Source: Chloroflexota bacterium
GTDB lineage: Bacteria > Chloroflexota > UBA11872
Assembly: GCA_026708035.1 (NCBI GenBank)
Contig: JAPOVQ010000035.1
Location: 124,001-188,000, forward strand
Length of the DNA stretch: 64,000 nt
Direction of reading: 5' to 3'
The notes under the pieces were generated by a model that made no database searches, had not been told where the DNA came from, and was given only the letters and a program-made list of their open reading frames with translations. Below are positions 5,260-56,526 of the stretch, piece after piece; the stretch's first letter is position 1; every line of letters starts with the position of its first letter. Position numbers and translations under genes: made by a program.

Positions 5260-6843
5260 GTGGCCGCCGTAGCTTTTGAGCTCGAAGTCTTTCGCCATCT
5301 CTTCGCGTCGGTTGCCGAGGAGATGGGCGTCACCGTGCAGCGCAGCGCGCACTCCCCCAACATCAAGGAGCGGCGCGACCACTCCTGCGCCGTGTTCGAC
5401 CACGAGGGCCAAATGGTGGCGCAGGCGGCCCACGTTCCGGTGCACCTGGGCGCCATGCCCATGGCGGTGCAGGCCGCCGTCGACTTCTACCACGAGCGCG
5501 CGCCCGCCGCGGGCGACGTGATCATCGTCAACGATCCCTATCTCGGGGGCACGCACCTTCCCGACATCACCACCGTGTCACCAGTGTTCGTGGGCGAGCC
5601 GCTCGAAATGTGGGGCTGGGTGGCCACCCGCGCCCACCACGCGGACGTCGGCGGGCTGACCCCCGGCTCGATGCCCATGTCTACGGAGCTCTTCCACGAG
5701 GGCATCGTCATCCCGCCCCTCAAGCTGGTAGACGCGGGGAGGGTCGACGAGCAGTTGGTCGAGCTCATCTGCCGCAACGTGCGCACGCCCGACGAGCGCC
5801 GCGGCGACCTTGCGGCCCAGCTGGCCTCGCACCAGGTCGGCGAGACGCGGCTGCAAGCATTCGCCCGGCGCTACGGTCCGGGCGAGTTGAGTCGCATGGC
5901 GCGGGAACTCATGGCGTACACCGAGCAACTCGTGGTCGCGCGACTGCGCCGCGTCCCCAACGGCGAGTACGCGTTCGAAGACTTCCTCGACGACGATGGG
6001 AGAGGCGGCCCCTCGACGCCGCTTCGGGTCACCGTCACCGTGCGCGACGGGCGCTTCATCGTCGACTTCGCGGGCACGGCGGCGGCGGTGCCCGGATCGC
6101 TCAACGCGCCGTCCGCCATCACCCACTCCGCCGCGCTCTATATCGTGCGCTGCCTGGCGGGCGCCGATGTGCCGGCCAACGACGGCGCCAGGGCCGTGCT
6201 GGACGTCCGGGTGCCGCTGGGGACGGTGCTCAATCCGCAACCGCCCCACGCCGTGGCGGCCGGCAACGTCGAAACGTCCCAGCGAATCGTGGACGTGCTG
6301 TGGGGCGCCCTGGCCCAGGCGCTGCCGGACGAAGTGCCGGCCGCCAGCCAGGGGACGATGAACAACCTGGTCATCGGGGGAACCGATCCGCGATCGGGCG
6401 GCGCCTATACCTACTACGAGACCATCGCCGGAGGCGCCGGGGCGGGTCCCACACGACCGGGGGTCAGCGGCGTCCACGTCGCCATGACCAACACGTTGAA
6501 CACGCCCATCGAGGCGCTCGAGCTCGCCTATCCGATGCGCGCGCGGCGCTATGCCCTACGTCCTGGTTCCGGCGGCGCCGGTGCGCATCGGGGCGGCAAC
6601 GGCGTCGTGCGCGAGGTCGAAATGCTGGCGCCGGCGTCGGTGACCATCGTGGCCGAACGTCGGCGAATCGGTCCCTGGGGCCTGCGCGGCGGTGGCGACG
6701 GCCGCCGCGGACGAGACCGGATCCAGCGCCGCGGTCGCTGGCGCGACGTTCCGGGCAAGGGAACCCACAACCTGGGGGCCGGCGATCTGGTCCAGGTTTC
6801 CACGCCCGGCGGCGGCGGTTGGGGCGCTAGCGCCGCCGATTGA
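5260..6843 (+). CDS. Hydantoinase B/oxoprolinase family protein (HyuB-like)
   Basis: The 527 residues match the HyuB family throughout: SVAEEMGVTVQRSAHSPNIKER near the N-terminus, VNDPYLGGTHLPDITTVSPVF, AHHADVGGLTPGSMP and the glycine-rich C-terminal part. Family members are subunits of ATP-dependent N-methylhydantoinases, 5-oxoprolinases or acetone carboxylases and normally work with a HyuA partner. No hyuA gene is adjacent here, so the partner and substrate are unknown. The GTG at 5260 is the first possible start and begins directly with the conserved region. The C-terminus overlaps the convergent thpR by 17 bp. Confidence 0.85.
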   Translation: MAAVAFELEVFRHLFASVAEEMGVTVQRSAHSPNIKERRDHSCAVFDHEGQMVAQAAHVPVHLGAMPMAVQAAVDFYHERAPAAGDVIIVNDPYLGGTHLPDITTVSPVFVGEPLEMWGWVATRAHHADVGGLTPGSMPMSTELFHEGIVIPPLKLVDAGRVDEQLVELICRNVRTPDERRGDLAAQLASHQVGETRLQAFARRYGPGELSRMARELMAYTEQLVVARLRRVPNGEYAFEDFLDDDGRGGPSTPLRVTVTVRDGRFIVDFAGTAAAVPGSLNAPSAITHSAALYIVRCLAGADVPANDGARAVLDVRVPLGTVLNPQPPHAVAAGNVETSQRIVDVLWGALAQALPDEVPAASQGTMNNLVIGGTDPRSGGAYTYYETIAGGAGAGPTRPGVSGVHVAMTNTLNTPIEALELAYPMRARRYALRPGSGGAGAHRGGNGVVREVEMLAPASVTIVAERRRIGPWGLRGGGDGRRGRDRIQRRGRWRDVPGKGTHNLGAGDLVQVSTPGGGGWGASAAD

Positions 6844-7546: not shown

Positions 7547-8848
7547 ATGGCCGCGGCCGAAGGCGTCCTCATCAGCGACGGAACCGCGCCGCTGGACACC
7601 GCGCGCCGACACGAGCTGGGCGAGCAGCTCCGCGAGCGCATGCGCCGCGGCGACACCGGCGCCTCGGCATCCGCCATGGCCGCCGCCGACCTGGCCGTGG
7701 CCATCCACACCACGGTTCCCAACCCGGCGACGACGGTGTTTTGGGATGCCGGCGGCCACACTGACGCCTACCGGCACCTGCTGGGTCGCCCACCGTCGAC
7801 CGCGGCCCCGCCGGCGCCGGGGCGCGCGGTGTCCGAGGCCGTCGGCGCAGCCGTCGCGCGCCTGTTGCAACATGAGCCGACGTCAATCGTTGCGGTCATC
7901 GACGGACAGGGCCTCAGCGCCGGTCTGGCGTTCGAGGCGGTCAATCACGCCGGCCATCTGCAACTGCCGCTGGTGCTGGTGCTGGTCGACGCCCCGACCA
8001 CCCGCACCCGCAGCGTCGGCGCGGTGTCGCGTCACCTCACGCGGCTTCGCGGGCACCCCCGCTATGCCGATGCCAAGGTCCTGATCGAGCAGGCGCTCAG
8101 CCGGATGCCCGCCGGCGGCCAGGCCGTCGAGGTCGCCCGCAGACTCAAGAACTCAATGCGCGAGTTGCTCATTCCGACGGAGATCTGGGAGGAGTTGCTC
8201 GGCTTCACCTATCTGGGACCCGTGGATGGAGCCGGCGCCGACGCCCTGGCGGAATCGCTGGCGCTGGCCTTGGAGGTGCGGCGGCCGGTGCTGCTGCACG
8301 TGGCGGCCCCCGCCGGGGCGGCCGTGCGGCGTCCACGGCTCGACGCCGACCGCAACGGCGTCGCCGCCGCGCGCGCGGCCTGGCTGGGGGCGGCGGCGAC
8401 CGCCCTCGCCGACCTCGCGGAATCCGACGAGCTGTGCGTGACCGTCAGCGCGGGCGCCACGGCCCGCGGGGCGTTGCACGCCGTGGCGGAGCGCGTGCCG
8501 GAGCGGTTCCTGGATGTCGAGCTCGGTGAGGCGCACGGCATGTCGCTGGCGGCGAGCTTGGCCCGAGAAGGGCTGCGACCGGTGGTGGCGCTCGCCGCAT
8601 CGCGCACGCTGGCCACCATCGCCCCCCTGCTCGACGAAGCGACGCAAGCCCATGCGCCGCTCACGATCCTGGCCTATCCGGACGCGGCGCCCGACGCGGC
8701 GGTCGATGTGCTTTCGCGCAACGCCGTCCCGGGTCTCGACGTGGTCGTCCCCTCGCAACCGCACGACTTGAAGGACCTGCTCGCGGCGGCGCTGGTCAGC
8801 CCGCGCTGGACCCTCATTCAGTTGCCCGCGTCCGTCACGCAGGAGTAA
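7547..8848 (+). CDS. Degenerate DXS/transketolase-like protein
   Basis: The 433 residues follow 1-deoxy-D-xylulose-5-phosphate synthase collinearly: VFWDAGGHTDAYRHLLGR (DXS: VFDVGHQAYPHKLLTGR), FEAVNHAG, KNSMRELLIP, WEELLGFTYLGPVDG, and PERFLDVELGEAHGMSLAA, where the catalytic-Glu position is kept. It stops after the pyrimidine-binding domain and lacks the C-terminal domain of the usual protein of about 620 residues. The thiamine-diphosphate motif GDG...N reads DGQG...VDA, and the HSSTS loop is gone. The frame is open and starts with a good ATG, so it looks like a maintained pseudoenzyme or a protein with a new role rather than a fresh pseudogene. A true dxs must lie elsewhere, since dxr and ispG are in this window. 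Confidence 0.75.
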   Translation: MAAAEGVLISDGTAPLDTARRHELGEQLRERMRRGDTGASASAMAAADLAVAIHTTVPNPATTVFWDAGGHTDAYRHLLGRPPSTAAPPAPGRAVSEAVGAAVARLLQHEPTSIVAVIDGQGLSAGLAFEAVNHAGHLQLPLVLVLVDAPTTRTRSVGAVSRHLTRLRGHPRYADAKVLIEQALSRMPAGGQAVEVARRLKNSMRELLIPTEIWEELLGFTYLGPVDGAGADALAESLALALEVRRPVLLHVAAPAGAAVRRPRLDADRNGVAAARAAWLGAAATALADLAESDELCVTVSAGATARGALHAVAERVPERFLDVELGEAHGMSLAASLAREGLRPVVALAASRTLATIAPLLDEATQAHAPLTILAYPDAAPDAAVDVLSRNAVPGLDVVVPSQPHDLKDLLAAALVSPRWTLIQLPASVTQE

Positions 8849-9761: not shown

Positions 9762-10631
9762 CTAGCGCGCCAGCTCCCGTTCGATCTCGGCGGTGAGGCG
9801 CGCCAGGTGGGTCGGGTCATAGCCGACCCCTGCGGCCTGATCCACGAGCTGACGCGTTTGCTCCAGCCCGCTGCGGTGCTCGGCCGATCCAGGCTCCTCG
9901 CGCACGGCCACCTGCAGCGCGTCCCGCGCTTGGAGGTAGAGCTGACGCCCCTGCTCCTCCGGCGACTCCTCCTGGACACCGACGCCGAGCAGCCGCTTGG
10001 TCAACGTGACTGCGGAAGCTGCATCCGGCGCGTAGCCGTCGGCATTGATCTCGTCGGCATAGCGCTGCGTCACCGGCGCGCCGCCGATGATGCACTGCAC
10101 CTGGTCATCGAGACCCGCCGCCTCGACGGCTTCGATCGTGCTGCGCATGTTCGTCATCGTCGTGGTCAGCAGCGCCGACATGCCCACGATGTGCGCGCCC
10201 TGACTCAGCGCTTCCTGGACGTATTCGTCGGGGTGGGTGTCGATGCCGGTGTCGGTGACGTCGAACCCAGCGCCTTCGAGCATCATCGCCACCAGGTTCT
10301 TGCCGATGTCGTGCAGGTCGCCGCGGACCGTGCCGATCACCACTCGGCCCAGCGGCTCGATTCCCGACTCGGTCAGCAGCGGACGCAGGATGGCCATCCC
10401 CGTCTTCATCGCCCTGGCGGAAATCAGAACTTCCGGCACGTAGTACTGGTTCGTGCGGAACAGCTCGCCCACGACGTCCATCCCGGGGATCATGCCGTCG
10501 TTGATGATCGCTCCGGGTGATACCTCGGCCTCGAGGCACGCCTTGACTAGGCGGTCCACGCTCGGCGCGTCGCCCTTGATGATGCTGTCGCTTAATTCCT
10601 GGAATGCCGCGTCGATGTCGATATCCGCCAT
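9762..10631 (-). CDS. Corrinoid (B12-binding) protein of methyltransferase systems
   Basis: The protein of 289 residues has a helical B12-binding cap (residues 1-90, ending near NQYYVPEVLISARAMK) and then a Rossmann B12 domain with the base-off signature DLHDIGKN, where His replaces the lower cobalt ligand. The sequences VGMSALLTTTM and IIGGAPVTQRYADEI follow. These match MtbC/MttC-type corrinoid proteins that carry methyl groups between substrate- and acceptor-specific methyltransferases. A helical, charged extension of about 70 residues follows the B12 domain and is not usual. No methyltransferase gene is adjacent. It is divergent from rdgB across 187 bp in which I see no further gene. Confidence 0.85.
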   Translation of the reverse strand: MADIDIDAAFQELSDSIIKGDAPSVDRLVKACLEAEVSPGAIINDGMIPGMDVVGELFRTNQYYVPEVLISARAMKTGMAILRPLLTESGIEPLGRVVIGTVRGDLHDIGKNLVAMMLEGAGFDVTDTGIDTHPDEYVQEALSQGAHIVGMSALLTTTMTNMRSTIEAVEAAGLDDQVQCIIGGAPVTQRYADEINADGYAPDAASAVTLTKRLLGVGVQEESPEEQGRQLYLQARDALQVAVREEPGSAEHRSGLEQTRQLVDQAAGVGYDPTHLARLTAEIERELAR

Positions 10632-29157: not shown

Positions 29158-30198
29158 ATGACGTCGATGCTTGCCGTCCGCAAGGCCGCGCCCACCCCCG
29201 GCGTCGAGCTGGCCGAGTTGCCGCGGCCCCAACCGGCCGCCGATGAGTTCCTCATCAAAGTGCGGCGCAGCGGCATCTGCGGCTCGGACAAGCACCTCTA
29301 CCTCTGGGACGAGTGGGCGGCGGGCAACTACCCCACGCCGTTCACCCTGGGGCACGAGCTGGTCGGCGAGGTCGCGGAATTGGGAGCCCACGTGCGGGGG
29401 TTCGCGCCCGGCGACGTCGTGGCCATCGAGAGCCACATCTTCGACGGCACGTGCCGTCCCTGCCGCACCGGCAACGCCCACGTATGCGAGAACCTGCGCA
29501 TTCTCGGCATCGACGTGTCCGGTGGCTTCGCCGAATACGCCGCCGTGCCGAGCCGGCTCGCCTGGCGCGTGCCGCCGACGATTCCGCTGGAGCGGGCCGT
29601 CCTTTTCGAGCCGCTTGGCAACGCCGTGCACGCCGCCATGCGCTACGACGTTTCCGGCCAGCCGGTCGCGGTCTACGGCTGCGGCCCGATGGGACTCATG
29701 GCCATCGCGGTGGCGCACACGGCCGGGGCCTTCCCCATCGTCGCCTCCGACGTCTCGGACTATCGCCGCACGCTGGCGTTGCAGGTCGGCGCGCACCAGA
29801 CCGTCGACGCGTCAAGGCCGAGCGTCGAGCAAGACATCGTCGACGCCCTAGGGGAGCGCCCCACGGTCAGCTTGGAAATGTCGGGGCACCCCACCGCGCT
29901 GCGGCAGGCGCTGCGGGTCTCGGCCAACGCCGGCAAGATCGTGTTCCTGGGTATTCCGCCCAAGCCGATCACCATCGATCTGGCCGAGGAATTTATGTTC
30001 AAGGGCCTGGAGGCCTACGGCGTCACCGGACGCTTGATCTGGGATACCTGGTATCGCACGGAGGCCTTCCTGCAAATCCACGGCGACCTGCTCGAGCCGC
30101 TGGTCACGCACACGTTTCCGCTGCGCGACTTCGAGGACGCCATGCAACTCGTGCTCTCGGGCGACTGCGGCAAGGTGCTGCTCGACATCGACGGTTAG
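29158..30198 (+). CDS. Zinc-dependent alcohol dehydrogenase, L-threonine 3-dehydrogenase-like
   Basis: Medium-chain dehydrogenase of 346 residues. SGICGSDKHLYLWDEW and GHELVGEV hold the catalytic zinc ligands, and the WDEW segment and FEPLGNAVHAAM are typical of threonine dehydrogenase. The NAD site is AVYGCGPMGLM. The structural zinc loop reads DGTCRPCRTGNAHVC, so the first of the four usual Cys is Asp. Threonine dehydrogenase yields 2-amino-3-ketobutyrate, a source of glycine, which would feed the glycine cleavage genes here; other polyols remain possible. ATG 29158 has TAGGA at good spacing. Tail-to-tail 4 bp overlap with the EamA gene. Confidence 0.8.
   Translation: MTSMLAVRKAAPTPGVELAELPRPQPAADEFLIKVRRSGICGSDKHLYLWDEWAAGNYPTPFTLGHELVGEVAELGAHVRGFAPGDVVAIESHIFDGTCRPCRTGNAHVCENLRILGIDVSGGFAEYAAVPSRLAWRVPPTIPLERAVLFEPLGNAVHAAMRYDVSGQPVAVYGCGPMGLMAIAVAHTAGAFPIVASDVSDYRRTLALQVGAHQTVDASRPSVEQDIVDALGERPTVSLEMSGHPTALRQALRVSANAGKIVFLGIPPKPITIDLAEEFMFKGLEAYGVTGRLIWDTWYRTEAFLQIHGDLLEPLVTHTFPLRDFEDAMQLVLSGDCGKVLLDIDG
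29993..30003 (-). other. Near match to the XerD half-site motif in the opposite orientation
   Basis: TTATGTTCAAG on the plus strand matches 9 of 11 bases of the E. coli XerD arm but differs from the TTKACATAA consensus of this window by one extra base. It lies in the Tdh-like gene at codons for F-M-F-K and is the only left-side near match that points the other way. Confidence 0.2.
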
Positions 30199-38216: not shown

Positions 38217-39053
38217 CTACTCGCCCTGCGCCTCCCGGGTGAGTGTGAGCAGATTCTCCAGCAGGCAATAGACCGTCAGCGGCCCCACGCCCCCGGGCAC
38301 CGGCGAATAGGCCGAGGCGACTTCGGCCACACCGTTCGCATCCACGTCGCCTTTCAGACCTTCGGACGTGTAGGTGGCGCCCACGTCGATGACCACCGCG
38401 CCCGGCTTCACGTGCTCGCGGGTAATCAGGCCGGGATGCCCCACGCACGTGACCAGCACGTCGGCCTGCGAGGTTACCGCCGCCAGATCGCGAGTCCGCG
38501 AGTGGCAAAGGGTCACGGTCGCGTCGCGCGCCAGCATCAGCAACGCCACCGGCTTGCCCACGCCGCGGCTGCGGCCCACGACCGCCACCGGACGCCCGGC
38601 CAGCGGGATTTCGTAGTACTCCAGCAGGCGCAGAACCGCCGTCGCCACGCCCGGCGCCAGCTCGGATGCGCCTGCCAGCACCGCGCCGATGGCGGCGCGA
38701 GTAATCCGGTCCACATCCTTCGAGGGCGGAACCGCGGCGACAATGGACGCAGTGTCCACCGACGACGGAAGTGGCAGCGCCAGGATTATTCCCTGGATCT
38801 GCTCGTCCGCCCCGAGCCGCTCCACGAGCCCGACGGCCTCGGCGGTCGTCGACGCTTCGTCGAGCAATTGTTCGGCGACTGGCACGCCAACGCGGCGAGC
38901 GCCGCGCGAAACCTGCCGGGCGTAGGCGGCCCCGGCGGGATGGGTCGCGCACCGAACGAAGGTTAGGGCGGGCAGCTTGGCGAACTGCGTGAGTTCCGCG
39001 GCAAGCGACGCCCGCAGCGCCCGAGCCGGCTCCCGGCCCGTCAGCGCCGTCAC
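38217..39053 (-). CDS. folD: Methylenetetrahydrofolate dehydrogenase/cyclohydrolase
   Basis: Interconverts methylene-, methenyl- and formyl-tetrahydrofolate. Family blocks are GIILALPLPSSVD, PSKDVDRI, AVVGRSRGVGKPVALLML (NADP binding), VIDVGATYT and DVDANGVAEVASAYSPVPGGVGPLT. The active-site region with the catalytic Lys normally in YxxxK reads AYARQVS, an unusual replacement. GTG 39053 overlaps the fchA stop (GTGA) and has GGAG eight bases upstream, giving 278 residues. A longer upstream frame lies in fchA. Confidence 0.88.
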   Translation of the reverse strand: MTALTGREPARALRASLAAELTQFAKLPALTFVRCATHPAGAAYARQVSRGARRVGVPVAEQLLDEASTTAEAVGLVERLGADEQIQGIILALPLPSSVDTASIVAAVPPSKDVDRITRAAIGAVLAGASELAPGVATAVLRLLEYYEIPLAGRPVAVVGRSRGVGKPVALLMLARDATVTLCHSRTRDLAAVTSQADVLVTCVGHPGLITREHVKPGAVVIDVGATYTSEGLKGDVDANGVAEVASAYSPVPGGVGPLTVYCLLENLLTLTREAQGE

Positions 39054-39676
39054 GATCGCAACTCCGCCAGGACGCCGTCCGCGGCAGCGTCGGCACGCGC
39101 CAGTGCGTCGCGAAAACGCTCGCAACTGCGCTCCAGCGCAGCGCGCGCGGCGTCGTCGGCGACCGAGCCGATATTGGCGGCGATGTTCATCTCGCAGATG
39201 CGCATGGCGCCGCGCGCCAGCGCCGCGCCGGCGGCGGCATCGCAGCGCACGTTCGGATTGGCCTCGGAAATGGCGGCGCCGGAAAGCTCGATCACCTCGA
39301 GCGCCAGCTCGCCCACCTCCGCGGGGACGCGGCTTGCCGCCAATGCCGCGGTGCCTATCGCTTCGGCCCGCGCGGCCTTGGCGGCGCGTGGCAGTCGATA
39401 GGACTCCAGCAACCCGGCGTAGGCGTCGGCATCCGCCTCGATGAGCGCCAGCGCCTCACCGCGAATCGCGTCCGTCCGGGCCACGATGCGTTTCATTTCG
39501 GCATGCACGGATTTGAAGCGTTTCCTGGCCAGCGTGAGCCGGGCGCTCATGCCCACCAGCGCCGCTCCCAGCGCCACGGCCGCCGCCGCCGCGCTGCCGC
39601 CGCCGGGCGTGGGTGAATCGGACGCCAGCGCCGCCGCGAAGCCCTCGATCGTTGCGTGAGCGGCGCCTTCCGCCAC
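39050..39676 (-). CDS. fchA: Methenyltetrahydrofolate cyclohydrolase/formiminotransferase-cyclodeaminase family protein
   Basis: An all-helical protein of 208 residues with the family's glycine-rich PTPGGGSAAAAAVALGAALVGM, SLAR-like helices and the end EANPNVRCDAAAGAALARGAM. The free-standing form acts as cyclohydrolase on methenyl-THF (FchA) or as formimino-THF cyclodeaminase. Position between metF and folD favours the first. The GTG at 39676 begins at the conserved AEGAAHATIEGF; an earlier start runs into metF. Confidence 0.83.
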   Translation of the reverse strand: MAEGAAHATIEGFAAALASDSPTPGGGSAAAAAVALGAALVGMSARLTLARKRFKSVHAEMKRIVARTDAIRGEALALIEADADAYAGLLESYRLPRAAKAARAEAIGTAALAASRVPAEVGELALEVIELSGAAISEANPNVRCDAAAGAALARGAMRICEMNIAANIGSVADDAARAALERSCERFRDALARADAAADGVLAELRS

Positions 39677-39677
39677 G

Positions 39678-40685
39678 CTAGGCCGCGGTGGCGGCCGTGC
39701 CCACGGCAGCAGCGGGCGCAAGTGCGGGAACCGGTGTCGGCCGGGGCAACTCGAGACCTGCGGCCTCCACGATGCGCGGCACGGCCTTCTCCCAGTCGAT
39801 CGCCATCACGTGCACCCCGTGCACGCCCTCGATCTCGCGCACTTGCTCGATGATTTCCAGGCAGATGCGAATGCCCTCGGCGCGCGGCTTGCGCGCGCCG
39901 CGCATGCGCTGCATCACGGCGTCGGGAACTTCCATCCCCGCGACCTTGAACTTCATGAACTCGGCCATCCGAGCCGACTTTAGCGGACCCACGCCCGCCA
40001 GTATGTGAATTCGTTCATGAATGCCCTCATCGCGTATGCGCGACATCCACTCGGCGAAGCGCTCCACGTTGAAGATCATCTGCGTCAGCGCGAACTCCTG
40101 GCCCGCGGCGGCCTTCTTGACCATGCGCAGCGGGCGGAAGCCATAGGGCGGCGCAAAGGGATTGGCCGCACCGCCAATGAAGAGCCGGAAGTCGCCCTTG
40201 ATCGGGTCGCCCGCAGCATTGCGATTCTCGTCTCGGAGCTGCTTCAACAAGCGCACGAGCTGCACGCCCTGCAGGTCAAAGACCGGCTTGGCCATGGGAT
40301 GGTCGCCCAGGACGAGCGAGTCCCCGCTGATTGACATAAAATTCCGAATGCCAAACGCCTGCGCCGCAATGACGTCCGATTGGATGCCCAGCCGATTCCG
40401 GTCGCGGCATGAGAGCTGCATGATCGGTTCCACGCCGCCCTCGCGGCAGAGCAGCGCCGCGCCCCAGTGCGACATCTTGAGCGCCGCGCCCTGGTTGTCC
40501 GTGCAGCTGGCGGCGTCCACGAAGCCGCGCAGGATCTTCGCCTTCGCCCGCACGTCGGCCGCATCCGGGCCCTTGGGCGGCCCGAGTTCACAGGTGACGG
40601 CAAAGTGGCCGGCGTCGAGCACGGCCTGCAAATGGCTGTATGGCGGCCCCGACGCGGGGCCGTCGACGGGAGGCGAATCAGACAC
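39678..40685 (-). CDS. metF: Methylenetetrahydrofolate reductase
   Basis: Reduces methylene-THF to methyl-THF. The FAD-dependent TIM barrel shows FAVTCELGPPKGPD, NQGAALKMS, PIMQLSCRDRNRLGIQSD, ISGDS and FIGGAANPFAPP. TQMIFNVERFAEWMSR and ILAGVGPLKSARMAEFM follow. 335 residues with an Ala/Pro-rich tail. GTG start; first gene of the metF-fchA-folD operon, which would supply methyl-THF to methionine synthesis or to a corrinoid protein such as the one at 9762. A TTGACATAA motif lies inside. Confidence 0.9.
   Translation of the reverse strand: MSDSPPVDGPASGPPYSHLQAVLDAGHFAVTCELGPPKGPDAADVRAKAKILRGFVDAASCTDNQGAALKMSHWGAALLCREGGVEPIMQLSCRDRNRLGIQSDVIAAQAFGIRNFMSISGDSLVLGDHPMAKPVFDLQGVQLVRLLKQLRDENRNAAGDPIKGDFRLFIGGAANPFAPPYGFRPLRMVKKAAAGQEFALTQMIFNVERFAEWMSRIRDEGIHERIHILAGVGPLKSARMAEFMKFKVAGMEVPDAVMQRMRGARKPRAEGIRICLEIIEQVREIEGVHGVHVMAIDWEKAVPRIVEAAGLELPRPTPVPALAPAAAVGTAATAA
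40331..40339 (+). other. TTKACATAA motif (XerD half-site-like), copy 4
   Basis: Exact TTGACATAA antisense within metF; the coding strand reads TTATGTCAA in N-F-M-S-I. See the finding on the polarised motif family. Confidence 0.5.
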
Positions 40686-51953: not shown

Positions 51954-53405
51954 CTAGCCGGCCGGGGTCCAGTTCACGTCCGGCGAGCGGTTGGCCGTCA
52001 CTTCGTCCAGCCGGCGAACGGGCGCCGTCGTAGGCGCGGCGTGCAGCAAATCCGGAGCCGTCTTGGCCTCGTGGGCCACGCTGATCAGGGCCTCCGCGAA
52101 CTGGTCCAGCGACTCGATCGATTCGGTTTCCGTCGGCTCGATCATCAACGCCTCGTCGACGATCAGCGGAAAGTACACCGTGGGCGGATGGACGCCGTAG
52201 TCGATGAGCCGCTTGGCGATGTCCGTGGTGCGGACGCCCAGCCCTCGCTGCCTCGTGCCCGACAGCACCACCTCGTGCATGCAGATCCGGTCGTAGGGGA
52301 TGTCGAAGTGCGGCGCCAGTCGCGCCCGCAGATAGTTGGCGTGCAGCACCGCGTCATCCGCGACCTCACGCATTCCCTCGCGTCCCAGGCTGCGAATGTA
52401 GGTGTAACCGCGGATCAGGTTGCCGACGTTGCCGACGTGCGAATGCACCCGGCCGATGCTGTCGGGACCCGCCGGCTCCAGGGCATAGCCCGCATCCGTC
52501 TGGACGATACGCGGGCCCGGCAGAAATGGCGTCAGGTGCGGCTGCACGCCGAGCGCCCCCGCCCCGGGCCCGCCGCCGCCGTGGGGCGTGGTGAAAGTTT
52601 TATGTAAATTCAAGTGCATCACGTCGATGCCCAGATCGCCGGGCCGCACCCGGCCCAGCATCGCGTTCATGTTGGCGCCGTCCCCATACACCTGCCCGCC
52701 GGCCGCATGGACGCGCCGCGTGACCTCCAGGATTCGCTGCTCGAACAGGCCAAGCGTGGTCGGCAGCGTGAGCATCAGGGCCGCCACATCGTCATTGAGC
52801 TTGGCGTCAAGCTCGTCCAGGTCGATGTTGCCGTCCGGCGCCGTGCCCAGGGGCTCCACGCGCATCCCGGTCATCGTGGCCGTGGCGGGGTTCGTGCCAT
52901 GCGCCGAGTCGGGCACCAGCACCGTCGTCCGACGCTCACCGCGACTGCGCAGCCAGGCCTGGATGCAGAACAAGCCGACCATCTCGCCCTGCGAACCCGC
53001 CGCGGGCTGCGTGGTGACCGTGGCGAAGCCCGCAATCTCACCCAGCAGGGCTTCCAGATCATGAATGAGCGCAAGCAGCCCCTGCACCGACGCCTCGGGC
53101 TGGTAGGGATGCGGCTCGAGCAGTCCTGGCAGACGCGCCGTCACCTCGTTGATCTTGGGGTTGTATTTCATCGTGCAGGAGCCCAGCGGATAGATCGCCG
53201 TGTCGATGCTGTGATTGCGCTGCGAGAGGCGCACGAAGTGACGCATGACGTCGATTTCCGAGACCTCCGGCAGATCCAGCGTCTCGCGGATTTGACTCTC
53301 GGGCAGCACCGCCGCCGGATCGACGGCGTCGAACTGCGGCAGCGGCGGTCGCACGCCGGGCCGGCCGGGACTGGCCAGCTCGAAGATCAACGGCTCGCTA
53401 GCCAC
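51954..53405 (-). CDS. gcvPB: Glycine dehydrogenase (decarboxylating) subunit 2
   Basis: PLP-carrying half of the P-protein, 483 residues. It has SQRNHSIDTAIYPLGSCTMKYNP (read in parts), TQPAAGSQGEM, DSAHGTNPATA, and the PLP-Lys in NLHKTFTTPHGGGGPG. The C-terminal domain has YPLGR-type VYFPLIVDEALMIEPTE. It works with gcvPA and lipoylated GcvH. The GTG at 53405 overlaps the gcvPA stop by 8 bp; the upstream open frame is a shadow. A TTATGTAAA motif covers the codons for H-K at the PLP lysine and forces a rare TTA codon. Confidence 0.93.
   Translation of the reverse strand: MASEPLIFELASPGRPGVRPPLPQFDAVDPAAVLPESQIRETLDLPEVSEIDVMRHFVRLSQRNHSIDTAIYPLGSCTMKYNPKINEVTARLPGLLEPHPYQPEASVQGLLALIHDLEALLGEIAGFATVTTQPAAGSQGEMVGLFCIQAWLRSRGERRTTVLVPDSAHGTNPATATMTGMRVEPLGTAPDGNIDLDELDAKLNDDVAALMLTLPTTLGLFEQRILEVTRRVHAAGGQVYGDGANMNAMLGRVRPGDLGIDVMHLNLHKTFTTPHGGGGPGAGALGVQPHLTPFLPGPRIVQTDAGYALEPAGPDSIGRVHSHVGNVGNLIRGYTYIRSLGREGMREVADDAVLHANYLRARLAPHFDIPYDRICMHEVVLSGTRQRGLGVRTTDIAKRLIDYGVHPPTVYFPLIVDEALMIEPTETESIESLDQFAEALISVAHEAKTAPDLLHAAPTTAPVRRLDEVTANRSPDVNWTPAG
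52600..52608 (-). other. TTKACATAA motif (XerD half-site-like), copy 8
   Basis: TTTACATAA on the minus strand inside gcvPB, encoding N-L-H-K with rare TTA for Leu. It is the first copy in the reverse orientation. See the finding on the polarised motif family. Confidence 0.5.
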
Positions 53406-54756
53406 GATGCACCGCCTGCCAGGCATTCGAAAGCGCCTCGAGGTCGGCGCTTGTCGTGAGGTCCGTCGCGCACACCAGCAAGGCGTCATCGAGCACGGGA
53501 TCGATCCGGCCCAGCGGATAGCCGCCGAAGACCCCCTGGTCCGCCAGCGCCTTGACGGTCTCCTCGCCGCCGCGTGGCGTATGCACGATGAACTCGTGAA
53601 AGTAGGGCGCTGCGCTCGAGATGGTGGCCCCAACGTTCCTGAGAGCATCCGCGCACCGATGCGCCGCGCTCAGGCTTCGCGTCGCGAGGGCGCGCACGCC
53701 CGCCGGCCCCAGGGCGCTGATCGAAATCGCCGCCCCAAGCGCTACCAGGGCCTGGTTGGTCGTGATATTCGAGGTCGCGCGTTCGCGCCGGATGTGCTGC
53801 TCGCGGGTCTGCAGGGTCAGCACGAATCCCTGCTGCCCGTCGAGGTCGGTCGTCCGTCCCGCAATACGCCCAGGCAGGCGGCGAATGAACGCCTGCCGCG
53901 TGGCAAGCATCCCCGCGCCCGGCCCGCCGTATGCGGGCGGGCCGACCAACGATCGCAGCTCGCCCGCCACGATATCGGCCCCCAGTTCGCCCGGAGGCGT
54001 GAGCAATCCAAGCGAAATCGGGTCCGTGACGACGTAGACGATCTTCGCCCCGTGACGTTTGGCGGCCTCCACCACCGGCGCCGGATCCACCACCCATCCG
54101 AAGAAATCGGGGCGCTGCAGCACCACGCAGGCGGTCGTATCGTCGATGGCCGCCGCCACCGCCTCGATGTCCGGCGCCACGTCATTGCCGGTCCGCATCC
54201 AAGCGTCGACGGTGCGCAGCTTCACGCCGACCGCTTGGGTGTAGGTGGCCGCGACCTCCCGGTAGGCCGGATGCACCGTGCCGGCCATGACGACGCCGGA
54301 GCGGCGGGTGATGGCCCGGCACATGAGCACCGCCTCGGCCACCGCGGTGGCGCCGTCGTAGAGCGAGGCGTTGGCCACCTCCATGCCCGTGAGCCGGCAG
54401 ACGAGACTCTGAAACTCGTACATCGACTGCAGCGTGCCCTGCGTCATCTCGGCTTGATACGGCGTATAACCCGTGTACCACTCGGAGCGCAGCAGCAGTT
54501 GATCCACGAGCGCCGGCACGTAATGGCGGTAGAACCCGGCCCCTAGGAAACTGGGAACGCCCTCGGGGACCCGGTTCTGCTCGGCCAGCCCGCGCACCTC
54601 GCGCAACACGTCGACCTCGGGCAGGGCCTCGGGCAAATCGAGCCTGGGATCGCGGTAGGCGTCAGGGATATCGACGAACAGGTCATCAATCGAATCAACG
54701 CCGATGGTCCGCAGCATGCGCGCGCGATCGGCGTCGGTGCTAGGCGAGTAGCTCAT
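53398..54756 (-). CDS. gcvPA: Glycine dehydrogenase (decarboxylating) subunit 1
   Basis: Non-PLP half of the split P-protein, 452 residues. SFLGAGFYRHYVPALVDQLL, TGYTPYQAEMTQGTLQSMYEFQS, YGGPGAGMLATR and GRTTDLDGQQGFVLTLQTREQHIRRERATSNI are characteristic. The ATG at 54756 (MSYSPSTDADRARML) overlaps the gcvH end. gcvH-gcvPA-gcvPB is one operon; the aminomethyltransferase gcvT is not in the window. Confidence 0.93.
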   Translation of the reverse strand: MSYSPSTDADRARMLRTIGVDSIDDLFVDIPDAYRDPRLDLPEALPEVDVLREVRGLAEQNRVPEGVPSFLGAGFYRHYVPALVDQLLLRSEWYTGYTPYQAEMTQGTLQSMYEFQSLVCRLTGMEVANASLYDGATAVAEAVLMCRAITRRSGVVMAGTVHPAYREVAATYTQAVGVKLRTVDAWMRTGNDVAPDIEAVAAAIDDTTACVVLQRPDFFGWVVDPAPVVEAAKRHGAKIVYVVTDPISLGLLTPPGELGADIVAGELRSLVGPPAYGGPGAGMLATRQAFIRRLPGRIAGRTTDLDGQQGFVLTLQTREQHIRRERATSNITTNQALVALGAAISISALGPAGVRALATRSLSAAHRCADALRNVGATISSAAPYFHEFIVHTPRGGEETVKALADQGVFGGYPLGRIDPVLDDALLVCATDLTTSADLEALSNAWQAVHRG

Positions 54757-55132
54757 CCACGAATGCGTCGTAGGCCTCGGCGTCCAGCAAATCCTCGATG
54801 GCCGTGTTGGCGTCATCCGGACGCACGCGGATCAGCCAGCCCTCGTGAAAGGGCGAGCTGTTGACCAGCTCCGGCGCGCCGTCGAGCGCTGTATTGACCG
54901 CGATTACTTCCCCGGCCACCGGCGCGTAGAGCGGCGACACGGCTTTCACGGACTCAACGGTGCCGAATTCGTCCATCACCTCGACGTGGAGGCCTTCGGC
55001 GGGAAGCTCCACATACACCACGTCGCCCAGTTCGTCGGCGGCATAGCGCGTGATGCCCACGACGACGTCATCGCCGTCAAATCGAGCCCATTCGTGCTCG
55101 CGCGAATAGCGCGCGTCGGTTGGGCTGGTCAT
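54740..55132 (-). CDS. gcvH: Glycine cleavage system H protein
   Basis: Lipoyl carrier shuttling the aminomethyl group between P and T proteins, 130 residues. Opening ARYSREHEWARF, GITRYAADELGDVVYVELP and the lipoylation Lys in FGTVESVKAVSPLYAPVAGEV are present. The ATG at 55132 fits the family start. First gene of the gcv operon, divergent from mazG; the 119 bp gap carries a 16 bp palindrome but no glycine riboswitch that I can recognise. Confidence 0.94.
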   Translation of the reverse strand: MTSPTDARYSREHEWARFDGDDVVVGITRYAADELGDVVYVELPAEGLHVEVMDEFGTVESVKAVSPLYAPVAGEVIAVNTALDGAPELVNSSPFHEGWLIRVRPDDANTAIEDLLDAEAYDAFVDELLA

Positions 55133-55165
55133 GAAATCCCGTCTACCTGGTGTGGCGCGCGTGGT

Positions 55166-55181
55166 CCCGCAACGTTGCGGG
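55166..55181. promoter_or_regulatory. Perfect palindrome between gcvH and mazG, candidate operator
   Basis: CCCGCAACGTTGCGGG is fully self-complementary and lies 34 bp upstream of the gcvH ATG. The CAACGTTG centre recalls LacI-family operators, but no regulator gene is adjacent. TATTCT on the minus strand just upstream (about 55217-55212) may be the gcv -10 box. Binding is inference. Confidence 0.4.
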
Positions 55182-55251
55182 GCGTGCCGCGATGCTCGGC
55201 TAGACCGACGCCTAGAATAGCCCAGCCTTCCTACCTGTGTTTGTGAATCTG

Positions 55252-56526
55252 ATGACAGTGGTCCGGTCGTGCACGGTCGTCTTTGTGGGCGTCGGCAATC
55301 CCGCCGCGCTGGCGCCACGCGCTCGTCGGGCGATTCGCGGCGCCGACACGCTCGTCAGCTGGGTCGAGCCGCCGGACGGACTTGTGGATCGGCCCGTGGT
55401 GCGGCTGGCCACGCCGTCGCGCCGATCGTGGAAAGCACGGCTGCTTGGCCTGGGGACGGGCGACCTGACCTACCTGGCCCCTGGCTATGGAGCCGATGAC
55501 GACCCGGGAGCGGCCATCGTTTCGGAGGTCCTGGCGGATACCGGTTGCGAGGTTGACGTGTTGGGTCTGGACGGACCTCAGGCGCCCGGACCGGCGTTGA
55601 TCGGACCGGCGGCCCAAGCGTGGCTGCCCGACCCGGCGCTGGCGGCGGTGGTGCGGGGCATACGCGATGCGGCCGAGCTCGAACGCTGGCGCCAAACGAT
55701 CGCGCGGGAGTTCGGCCATGCTGCCCAACTGCGCCTCCGCCCGTGGAGTTCAACCACCTGGCAGGACCTCGACGATCGACCGGCGGAGTTCCCCCTGACG
55801 CTGCGCGCGGAGCCTACCGAAGCCTCGCGCGAGCGATCGGTCACTCGTCTCCGCGAGGTCTTCGAAACGCTGCGGGGACCCGAAGGCTGTCCCTGGGACC
55901 GGGCCCAAACCCACGCCTCGCTGCGCAAGTATGTCCTGGAGGAGGCCGCGGAAGTCGTCGACGCCATTGACGACGGCGAGCCGAGCGACCTCGCGGGCGA
56001 GCTCGGCGACCTCCTGGCCAACATCGTGTTGCACGCCGAAATCGCGCGCCAGGCCGAGAACTTCGCCTGGCCGGACGTCGTCCAAGGAGTCACCGCCAAG
56101 ATGGTGCGCCGCCATCCGCACGTCTTTGGCGAGCAGACCGCCCACGAGATATCCGAGGTCGCCGCCATCTGGCAGCACGCGAAACGCGCCGAAGCCGCGC
56201 GAGACGGCCAGGCGATCCGGGACGGCGCGCTGCCCGCCCTGGCGCAGGCGGCCAAGCTCTCCGCAATCCTGGATGGCCGTGCGGCGACGGACGGTCTGCC
56301 GCCGGGCGCCACGGCTGCGATTCGCTGGTATCGAAATTCAGAAATCGCCGCCGACGATGCCCGCGCCGGCGACGCGCTGTTGGGTCTGGCGCTCGACGCC
56401 AAGAGCGTGGGGATCGACCCCGAGCTGGCGCTCCGCGACGCGCTGCGGCGGACTCGCTCCCGGCTCGCGGCGATCAAGTCGACCCAGGCCGACGGTTCGT
56501 CGGCTGAGAATATTTATGTCAAATAG
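55252..56526 (+). CDS. mazG: MazG nucleoside triphosphate pyrophosphohydrolase with eroded methylase-like N-terminus
   Basis: The catalytic MazG domain (about residues 195-300) has LRGPEGCPWDRAQTHASL, the metal motif LEEAAEVVDAI and ELGDLL. A second, weaker MazG-like repeat follows (GDALLGLALDAKSVGIDPELALR) with its acidic residues partly lost. The first 180 residues look like a reduced tetrapyrrole-methylase domain as in YabN fusions (VVFVGVGNP, ARRAIRGADTLV) without the methylase motifs. It hydrolyses NTPs to NMPs, for example aberrant nucleotides. ATG 55252 is chosen over the GTG at 55237. Confidence 0.82.
   Translation: MTVVRSCTVVFVGVGNPAALAPRARRAIRGADTLVSWVEPPDGLVDRPVVRLATPSRRSWKARLLGLGTGDLTYLAPGYGADDDPGAAIVSEVLADTGCEVDVLGLDGPQAPGPALIGPAAQAWLPDPALAAVVRGIRDAAELERWRQTIAREFGHAAQLRLRPWSSTTWQDLDDRPAEFPLTLRAEPTEASRERSVTRLREVFETLRGPEGCPWDRAQTHASLRKYVLEEAAEVVDAIDDGEPSDLAGELGDLLANIVLHAEIARQAENFAWPDVVQGVTAKMVRRHPHVFGEQTAHEISEVAAIWQHAKRAEAARDGQAIRDGALPALAQAAKLSAILDGRAATDGLPPGATAAIRWYRNSEIAADDARAGDALLGLALDAKSVGIDPELALRDALRRTRSRLAAIKSTQADGSSAENIYVK
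56514..56522 (-). other. TTKACATAA motif (XerD half-site-like), copy 9
   Basis: Reads TTATGTCAA on the plus strand at the end of mazG (I-Y-V-K-stop), followed by AT. The 11 bases TTATGTCAAAT differ from the E. coli XerD arm at one position. See the finding on the polarised motif family. Confidence 0.55.

Follow-up and report, generated by a model that had tools for sequence, protein, structure and literature searches.

A predicted dehydrogenase-only FolD beside a stand-alone FchA in a compact one-carbon operon of a Chloroflexota bacterium

Why does a bacterium keep a stand-alone methenyltetrahydrofolate (methenyl-THF) cyclohydrolase, FchA, directly beside FolD? The question is raised by a 64,000-nucleotide stretch of a Chloroflexota genome (hereafter the window), in which metF, fchA, and folD form one tight unit on the minus strand at 38217-40685. 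A first-pass annotation had suggested that loss of the catalytic lysine of FolD may explain the retention of FchA. We consider it very probable that this FolD acts only as a 5,10-methylene-THF dehydrogenase and that FchA is the cyclohydrolase in a compact C1 interconversion operon.

Pfam matches and the minus-strand sequence bore out the proposed gene set, with fchA in the middle:

39678..40685, minus strand: metF, methylenetetrahydrofolate reductase, 335 aa (GTG 40685 to TAG 39678; PF02219, E 2.4e-35)
39050..39676, minus strand: fchA, methenyltetrahydrofolate cyclohydrolase by predicted function, 208 aa (GTG 39676 to TGA 39050; PF04961, E 9.8e-44)
39050..39053, minus strand: GTGA, the 4-nt overlap of the folD start and the fchA stop, read from the sequence
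38217..39053, minus strand: folD, predicted dehydrogenase only, 278 aa (GTG 39053 to TAG 38217; PF00763 and PF02882)

A single nucleotide separates metF from fchA, and the three genes are probably co-transcribed. The Pfam family assignments of MetF, FchA, and FolD are secure. Both FolD domains score over their cut-offs (PF00763, 70.9 bits, E 1.8e-19; PF02882, 178.7 bits, E 8.1e-53), which places the protein in the FolD family, and the stand-alone FchA reaches 149.7 bits against the PF04961 cut-off of 24.5. FchA falls under the cut-off of the NCBIfam equivalog NF045657 (133.6 bits against 275; E 6.4e-39), and its FchA-like function is predicted from its nearest PDB entry, the methenyl-THF cyclohydrolase 7vg4 (E 1.9e-24), and from its context. 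Among NCBIfam models, MetF comes closest to PRK08645, in its MTHFR half. The FolD frame as originally listed began at TTG 39125; we rejected this start as too early because its residues 1-22 have pLDDT below 50 and because GTG 39053 gives a 4-nt overlap with the fchA stop; counted from that GTG, the Pfam domain starts at residue 4. One FolD was found in the window genome, with FchA beside it, as expected of a monofunctional pair.

The metF-fchA-folD order was present in 12 of 12 same-family FchA loci examined. In two further families of the class (f2 and f4) fchA adjoins folD with no metF beside them in the loci that we read, and in two others (f3 and f5) fchA and folD lie on separate contigs. 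Between the two genera of the window's family, MetF is 81-84% identical, FchA about 44-53%, and FolD 49-51%; FolD and FchA appear to evolve much faster than MetF in this family.

The annotation had also pointed to ARQVS in FolD where the catalytic YxxxK is expected. Alignment with T. thermophilus FolD (PDB 6v6y) and with E. coli FolD, which served as the position ruler, showed this to be real: the motif reads Y-A-R-Q-V, with the tyrosine retained and valine at the lysine position. The codons concerned are as follows, with FolD numbered from its GTG start and the reference residues in E. coli numbering:

38922..38924, minus strand: Tyr44, codon TAC, equivalent to Tyr50 and retained (alignment and sequence)
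38910..38912, minus strand: Val48, codon GTT, replacing catalytic Lys54 (alignment and sequence)
38778..38780, minus strand: Ala92, codon GCG, replacing Gln98 (alignment and sequence)

Asp121 is retained as well, such that the substrate-orienting Tyr50 and Asp121 are present and the other two residues expected of a bifunctional FolD, Lys54 and Gln98, are not. No lysine is preserved near Val48 in the sequence: all five lysines of the protein (26, 112, 167, 216, and 234) lie away from it, K112 being the ordinary KDVD lysine. The predicted FolD model (mean pLDDT 90.1) gave query-normalised TM-scores of 0.82-0.89 to solved FolD/MTHFD chains among the 50 chains listed, showing that the FolD fold is intact. 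All 25 NCBIfam matches listed for this protein are described as bifunctional FolD, and none is over cut-off.

Among 41 genomes, comprising the window's own and 40 relatives, the FolD query matched in 38 and PF04961 in 35. Thirty FolDs delivered as loci, that of the window included, were aligned; Lys54 was absent from all 30 and Gln98 from 26, Tyr50 was kept in all 30, and Asp121 was kept in 28, with Glu in two. One relative (G040; 77% complete and outside the phylum sample) has FolD and no FchA match.

We extended the comparison to a phylum sample of 201 Chloroflexota genomes at least 85% complete, of which 191 matched PF00763 and 150 matched PF04961. Position 54 was typed in 190 genomes, G206 being left out for having no alignment over the motif; 26 loci were reached via FchA, and 15 further FolD genomes were reached via FolD itself for the final table. 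Stand-alone FchA was told apart from fused FTCD by hand, with the dividing line at a 480-aa open frame. Among the 126 genomes with non-Lys FolD, 120 carry stand-alone FchA, one (G127) carries fused FTCD only, and five have no PF04961 match, versus 8, 16, and 40, respectively, of the 64 genomes with at least one Lys-bearing copy (Fisher p 2.8e-32 over genomes, a statistic that ignores descent). By family majority, stand-alone FchA is present in 36 of 37 non-Lys versus 2 of 24 Lys families (p 2.7e-13, again ignoring descent). Gene order strengthens this correlation: among genomes with a listed place for both genes, FchA and FolD are neighbors in 83 of 96 with non-Lys FolD and in 0 of 6 with Lys FolD. 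Collectively, these data indicate that across the sampled phylum FolD without Lys54 usually goes with a stand-alone FchA, and the proposal that lysine loss may explain FchA retention proved well founded, there being no nearby lysine and the loss going with FchA phylum-wide.

Exceptions occur on both sides. The five non-Lys genomes without PF04961 are G115 and G261 (both 87% complete) and G202, G209, and G216, which belong to one family (f43; 90-93% complete). The FolD-like proteins of f43 carry F, L, V, and E at positions 50, 54, 98, and 121, such that all four key positions are changed in genomes where no FchA was found; they possibly have another function. The Lys genomes with a stand-alone FchA-like gene are four of family f17, three of family f20, and G245; the f17 and f20 matches are weak for the family (E 1.4e-20 to 4.2e-37), and that of G245 has an E-value of 1.5e-63.

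As a control across bacteria, we searched the genomes of 50 of 80 diverse named FolD loci and dropped one locus (L085) with no readable domain. FchA was present in 3 of 3 non-Lys genomes, namely Parvimonas, Caloramator, and one Chloroflexota MAG that matches the same-class relative G029 with 100% identity over 3846 bp and is G029 again. Through this class member, the identity also assigns the window to Chloroflexota. Stand-alone FchA was found in 4 of 46 Lys genomes, two of the four with Gln98 changed to Glu. The Caloramator and Parvimonas FolDs have alanine at the catalytic lysine position, and on the FolD tree these two Clostridia proteins fall within the non-Lys Chloroflexota FolDs.

The genomes surveyed are far from independent, because the Lys/non-Lys label changes only about three times on the FolD tree (three changes, or 5 by FastTree; built from the N-terminal domain after blanking columns 50, 54, and 98 and dropping duplicate G184 copies). 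An independent-pairs test found 2-3 pairs only and had no power. Lys-less FolD is thus mainly one old lineage, and the correlation between FchA and Lys54 is strong but shaped by descent and rests on few events. So few changes would suit a reading in which the lysine loss and FchA are unrelated, both merely old traits of one lineage, which we consider distinctly unlikely. Mere co-inheritance sits poorly with the adjacency of FchA to FolD in most of the non-Lys genomes versus none of the Lys genomes that had both places listed. It also sits poorly with two small genomes (G135 and G184) that carry one or two Lys-less paralogues and no FchA and yet keep a Lys-bearing FolD, as a division of labor between the two enzymes would lead one to expect; G184 was ruled out as an exception, its third FolD copy carrying the lysine. 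Lastly, five genomes of genus g2 that lack FchA have either no FolD match (G010, G015, and G016) or only a weak C-terminal one (G012 and G017), suggesting that FolD and FchA come and go together.

We then weighed whether FolD could still be bifunctional, with another residue or the backbone standing in for Lys54 and FchA acting as a high-flux helper. Of the 130 non-Lys FolDs counted, 85 still have Gln98, and many relatives thus retain part of the site; however, Lys54 is replaced by an aliphatic residue (I, L, or V) in 129 and by Gln in one, and the window FolD has neither a spare lysine near in sequence nor Gln98. The lysine has been described as a general acid/base of the cyclohydrolase reaction, positioned by the glutamine (PMC3338484), and as also supporting the dehydrogenase reaction (PMC3368264), so the dehydrogenase activity of the window FolD could be weak. 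In E. coli FolD, K54N was reported to leave cyclohydrolase activity undetectable and dehydrogenase activity at about 19%; for Q98H, dehydrogenase activity was about 8% and cyclohydrolase activity was estimated at 1% (PMC5688156). A bifunctional FolD in the window is therefore very unlikely, and the loss of Lys54, the phylum pattern, and the K54N phenotype together lead us to predict an enzyme with dehydrogenase activity only. E. coli mutants without cyclohydrolase are described as viable, probably via a spontaneous step (PMC5688156), and FchA thus need not be essential.

From sequence, then, we infer that cyclohydrolase activity is lacking in FolD and present in FchA. FolD would have lost the 5,10-methenyl-THF cyclohydrolase step with Lys54 (here also with Gln98), and FchA would supply that step. 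With Fhs and MetF, and with a MetV-like protein encoded elsewhere, the operon would link formate and formyl-, methenyl-, methylene-, and methyl-THF. Its net use is more likely to be the transfer or oxidation of C1 groups from GcvT-type demethylases and glycine cleavage than acetogenesis, and it could run to formate via Fhs.

The annotation had set this operon in a wider one-carbon context, listing glycine cleavage P and H proteins, a threonine dehydrogenase-like enzyme, and a corrinoid carrier in the window. Profile searches recovered all of them, the threonine dehydrogenase-like and corrinoid proteins scoring below cut-off:

51954..53648, minus strand: gcvPB frame, start overcalled (NF003346, 684 bits, over cut-off)
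53398..54816, minus strand: gcvPA (NF001696, 552.6 bits, over cut-off)
54740..55318, minus strand: gcvH frame, domain from residue 63-65 (TIGR00527, 161.5 bits, over cut-off)
29158..30198, plus strand: L-threonine 3-dehydrogenase-like protein (NF003808, 377.9 bits, cut-off 380)
9762..10631, minus strand: MtgC/MtbC-like corrinoid protein, 289 aa (PF02310 and PF02607; NF047996, 190.6 bits, below the cut-off of 370)

Among the further genes that the annotation named, fhs and gcvT have counterparts in the window genome, so other C1 genes are present: a genome search found one Fhs, one MetV-like protein (PF12225) on another contig, and the GcvT domain (GCV_T, PF01571) at five places. The carriers of this domain are an FAD-oxidoreductase/GcvT protein, whose domain make-up we take to be of the dimethylglycine or sarcosine dehydrogenase type, a sarcosine-oxidase-alpha-like protein, a DMSP-demethylase-like protein (325.5 bits, cut-off 410), a frame fusing SHMT and GcvT, and one weak match. 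For acsABCDE, the acetyl-CoA synthase family PF03598 gave no match in the window genome (96% complete), and for the corrinoid methyltransferases the MttB-type family PF06253 likewise gave none. The wider pathway claim thus stood as to its components (Fhs, MetV-like, GcvT-type, and GcvP/H proteins) and was not supported as to a Wood-Ljungdahl-like direction, PF03598 giving no match. From the gene list, conversion of threonine or glycine carbon to methyl groups is possible; the proteins with a GcvT domain speak rather for demethylation and the oxidation of C1 groups. C1 interconversion or methyl oxidation fits better than acetogenesis. That the three genes form the methyl arm of acetogenesis or of CO2 fixation is extremely improbable and was rejected: fhs, fchA, folD, metF, and metV are described as Wood-Ljungdahl genes (PMC3584212, PMC10103890) and the window genome encodes Fhs, FchA, FolD, MetF, and a MetV-like protein, but the acetyl-CoA synthase family gave no match, and the genome holds proteins resembling sarcosine oxidase alpha and DMSP demethylase as well as the FAD-oxidoreductase/GcvT protein.

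MttB was also rejected as the partner of the corrinoid carrier, PF06253 giving no match in the genome. No methyltransferase was recognised beside the carrier, the region at 10.8-17.8 kb holding Ham1, SDRs, RrnaAD, Pth, and Mfd. Elsewhere, 5260-6843 (plus strand) encodes a hydantoinase B/oxoprolinase and 7547-8848 (plus strand) a 433-aa protein with a DXP-synthase N-terminal domain. The SHMT-GcvT protein is a 1056-aa ATG frame on another contig (C15 of the window genome, G000; L349:3232-6402, minus strand) in which about 225 aa with no Pfam assignment separate PF00464 from PF01571. Because third-position GC stays at 0.81-0.93 throughout, it looks like a true fusion; our literature search found no report of an SHMT-GcvT fusion in Chloroflexi.

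Annotation models name such Lys-less proteins bifunctional FolD. In Chloroflexota, Lys54 alone predicts a stand-alone FchA well, which offers a simple rule by which folate pathway models can be corrected, and the Lys-less FolDs provide a natural enzyme set for asking why the two activities stay joined or split. Carolacton was reported not to bind K54N FolD (PMC5688156), and because its binding needs Lys54, Lys54-less FolDs would be naturally insensitive to it. A broader conjecture, which we judge unlikely, is that they constitute an old, widespread class that travels with FchA as a unit and is insensitive to natural products directed at FolD, carolacton among them, with inhibitor escape or high oxidative C1 flux as the selective reason. 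Our literature search returned no title or abstract opening on Lys54 loss or an either-or rule for FolD and FchA; most subscription journals lie outside its scope, and it says little on priority.

Compared with the bifunctional FolDs of E. coli (1B0A) and T. thermophilus (6V6Y), the window FolD shares the fold, Tyr50, Asp121, the Rossmann domain, and the GGVGP motif but carries Val at the Lys54 position and Ala at the Gln98 position. Clostridium perfringens (Aluri et al. 2016) reportedly has a FolD with dehydrogenase activity only together with FchA and Fhs, FchA performing the cyclohydrolase step; this is the same split as predicted for the window operon, in a different phylum. Yeast Mtd1 is a monofunctional NAD-dependent dehydrogenase of the FolD family without cyclohydrolase activity, and although eukaryotic it resembles the window FolD as a predicted dehydrogenase without cyclohydrolase. 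Methylobacterium extorquens (mtdA/fch) and acetogens (fhs-fchA-folD) are also described as encoding the dehydrogenase and the cyclohydrolase in separate genes that lie close together (PMC9618320, PMC3584212). The window shares this separate, neighboring arrangement with both sets, although acetogens carry CODH/ACS and acetyl-CoA synthase was not found in the window genome. MtdA belongs to a different dehydrogenase family from FolD. Together, these comparisons indicate that a separate FolD dehydrogenase and FchA are a known arrangement, of which the window represents a new, phylum-wide instance with a clear residue signature rather than a categorically new system.
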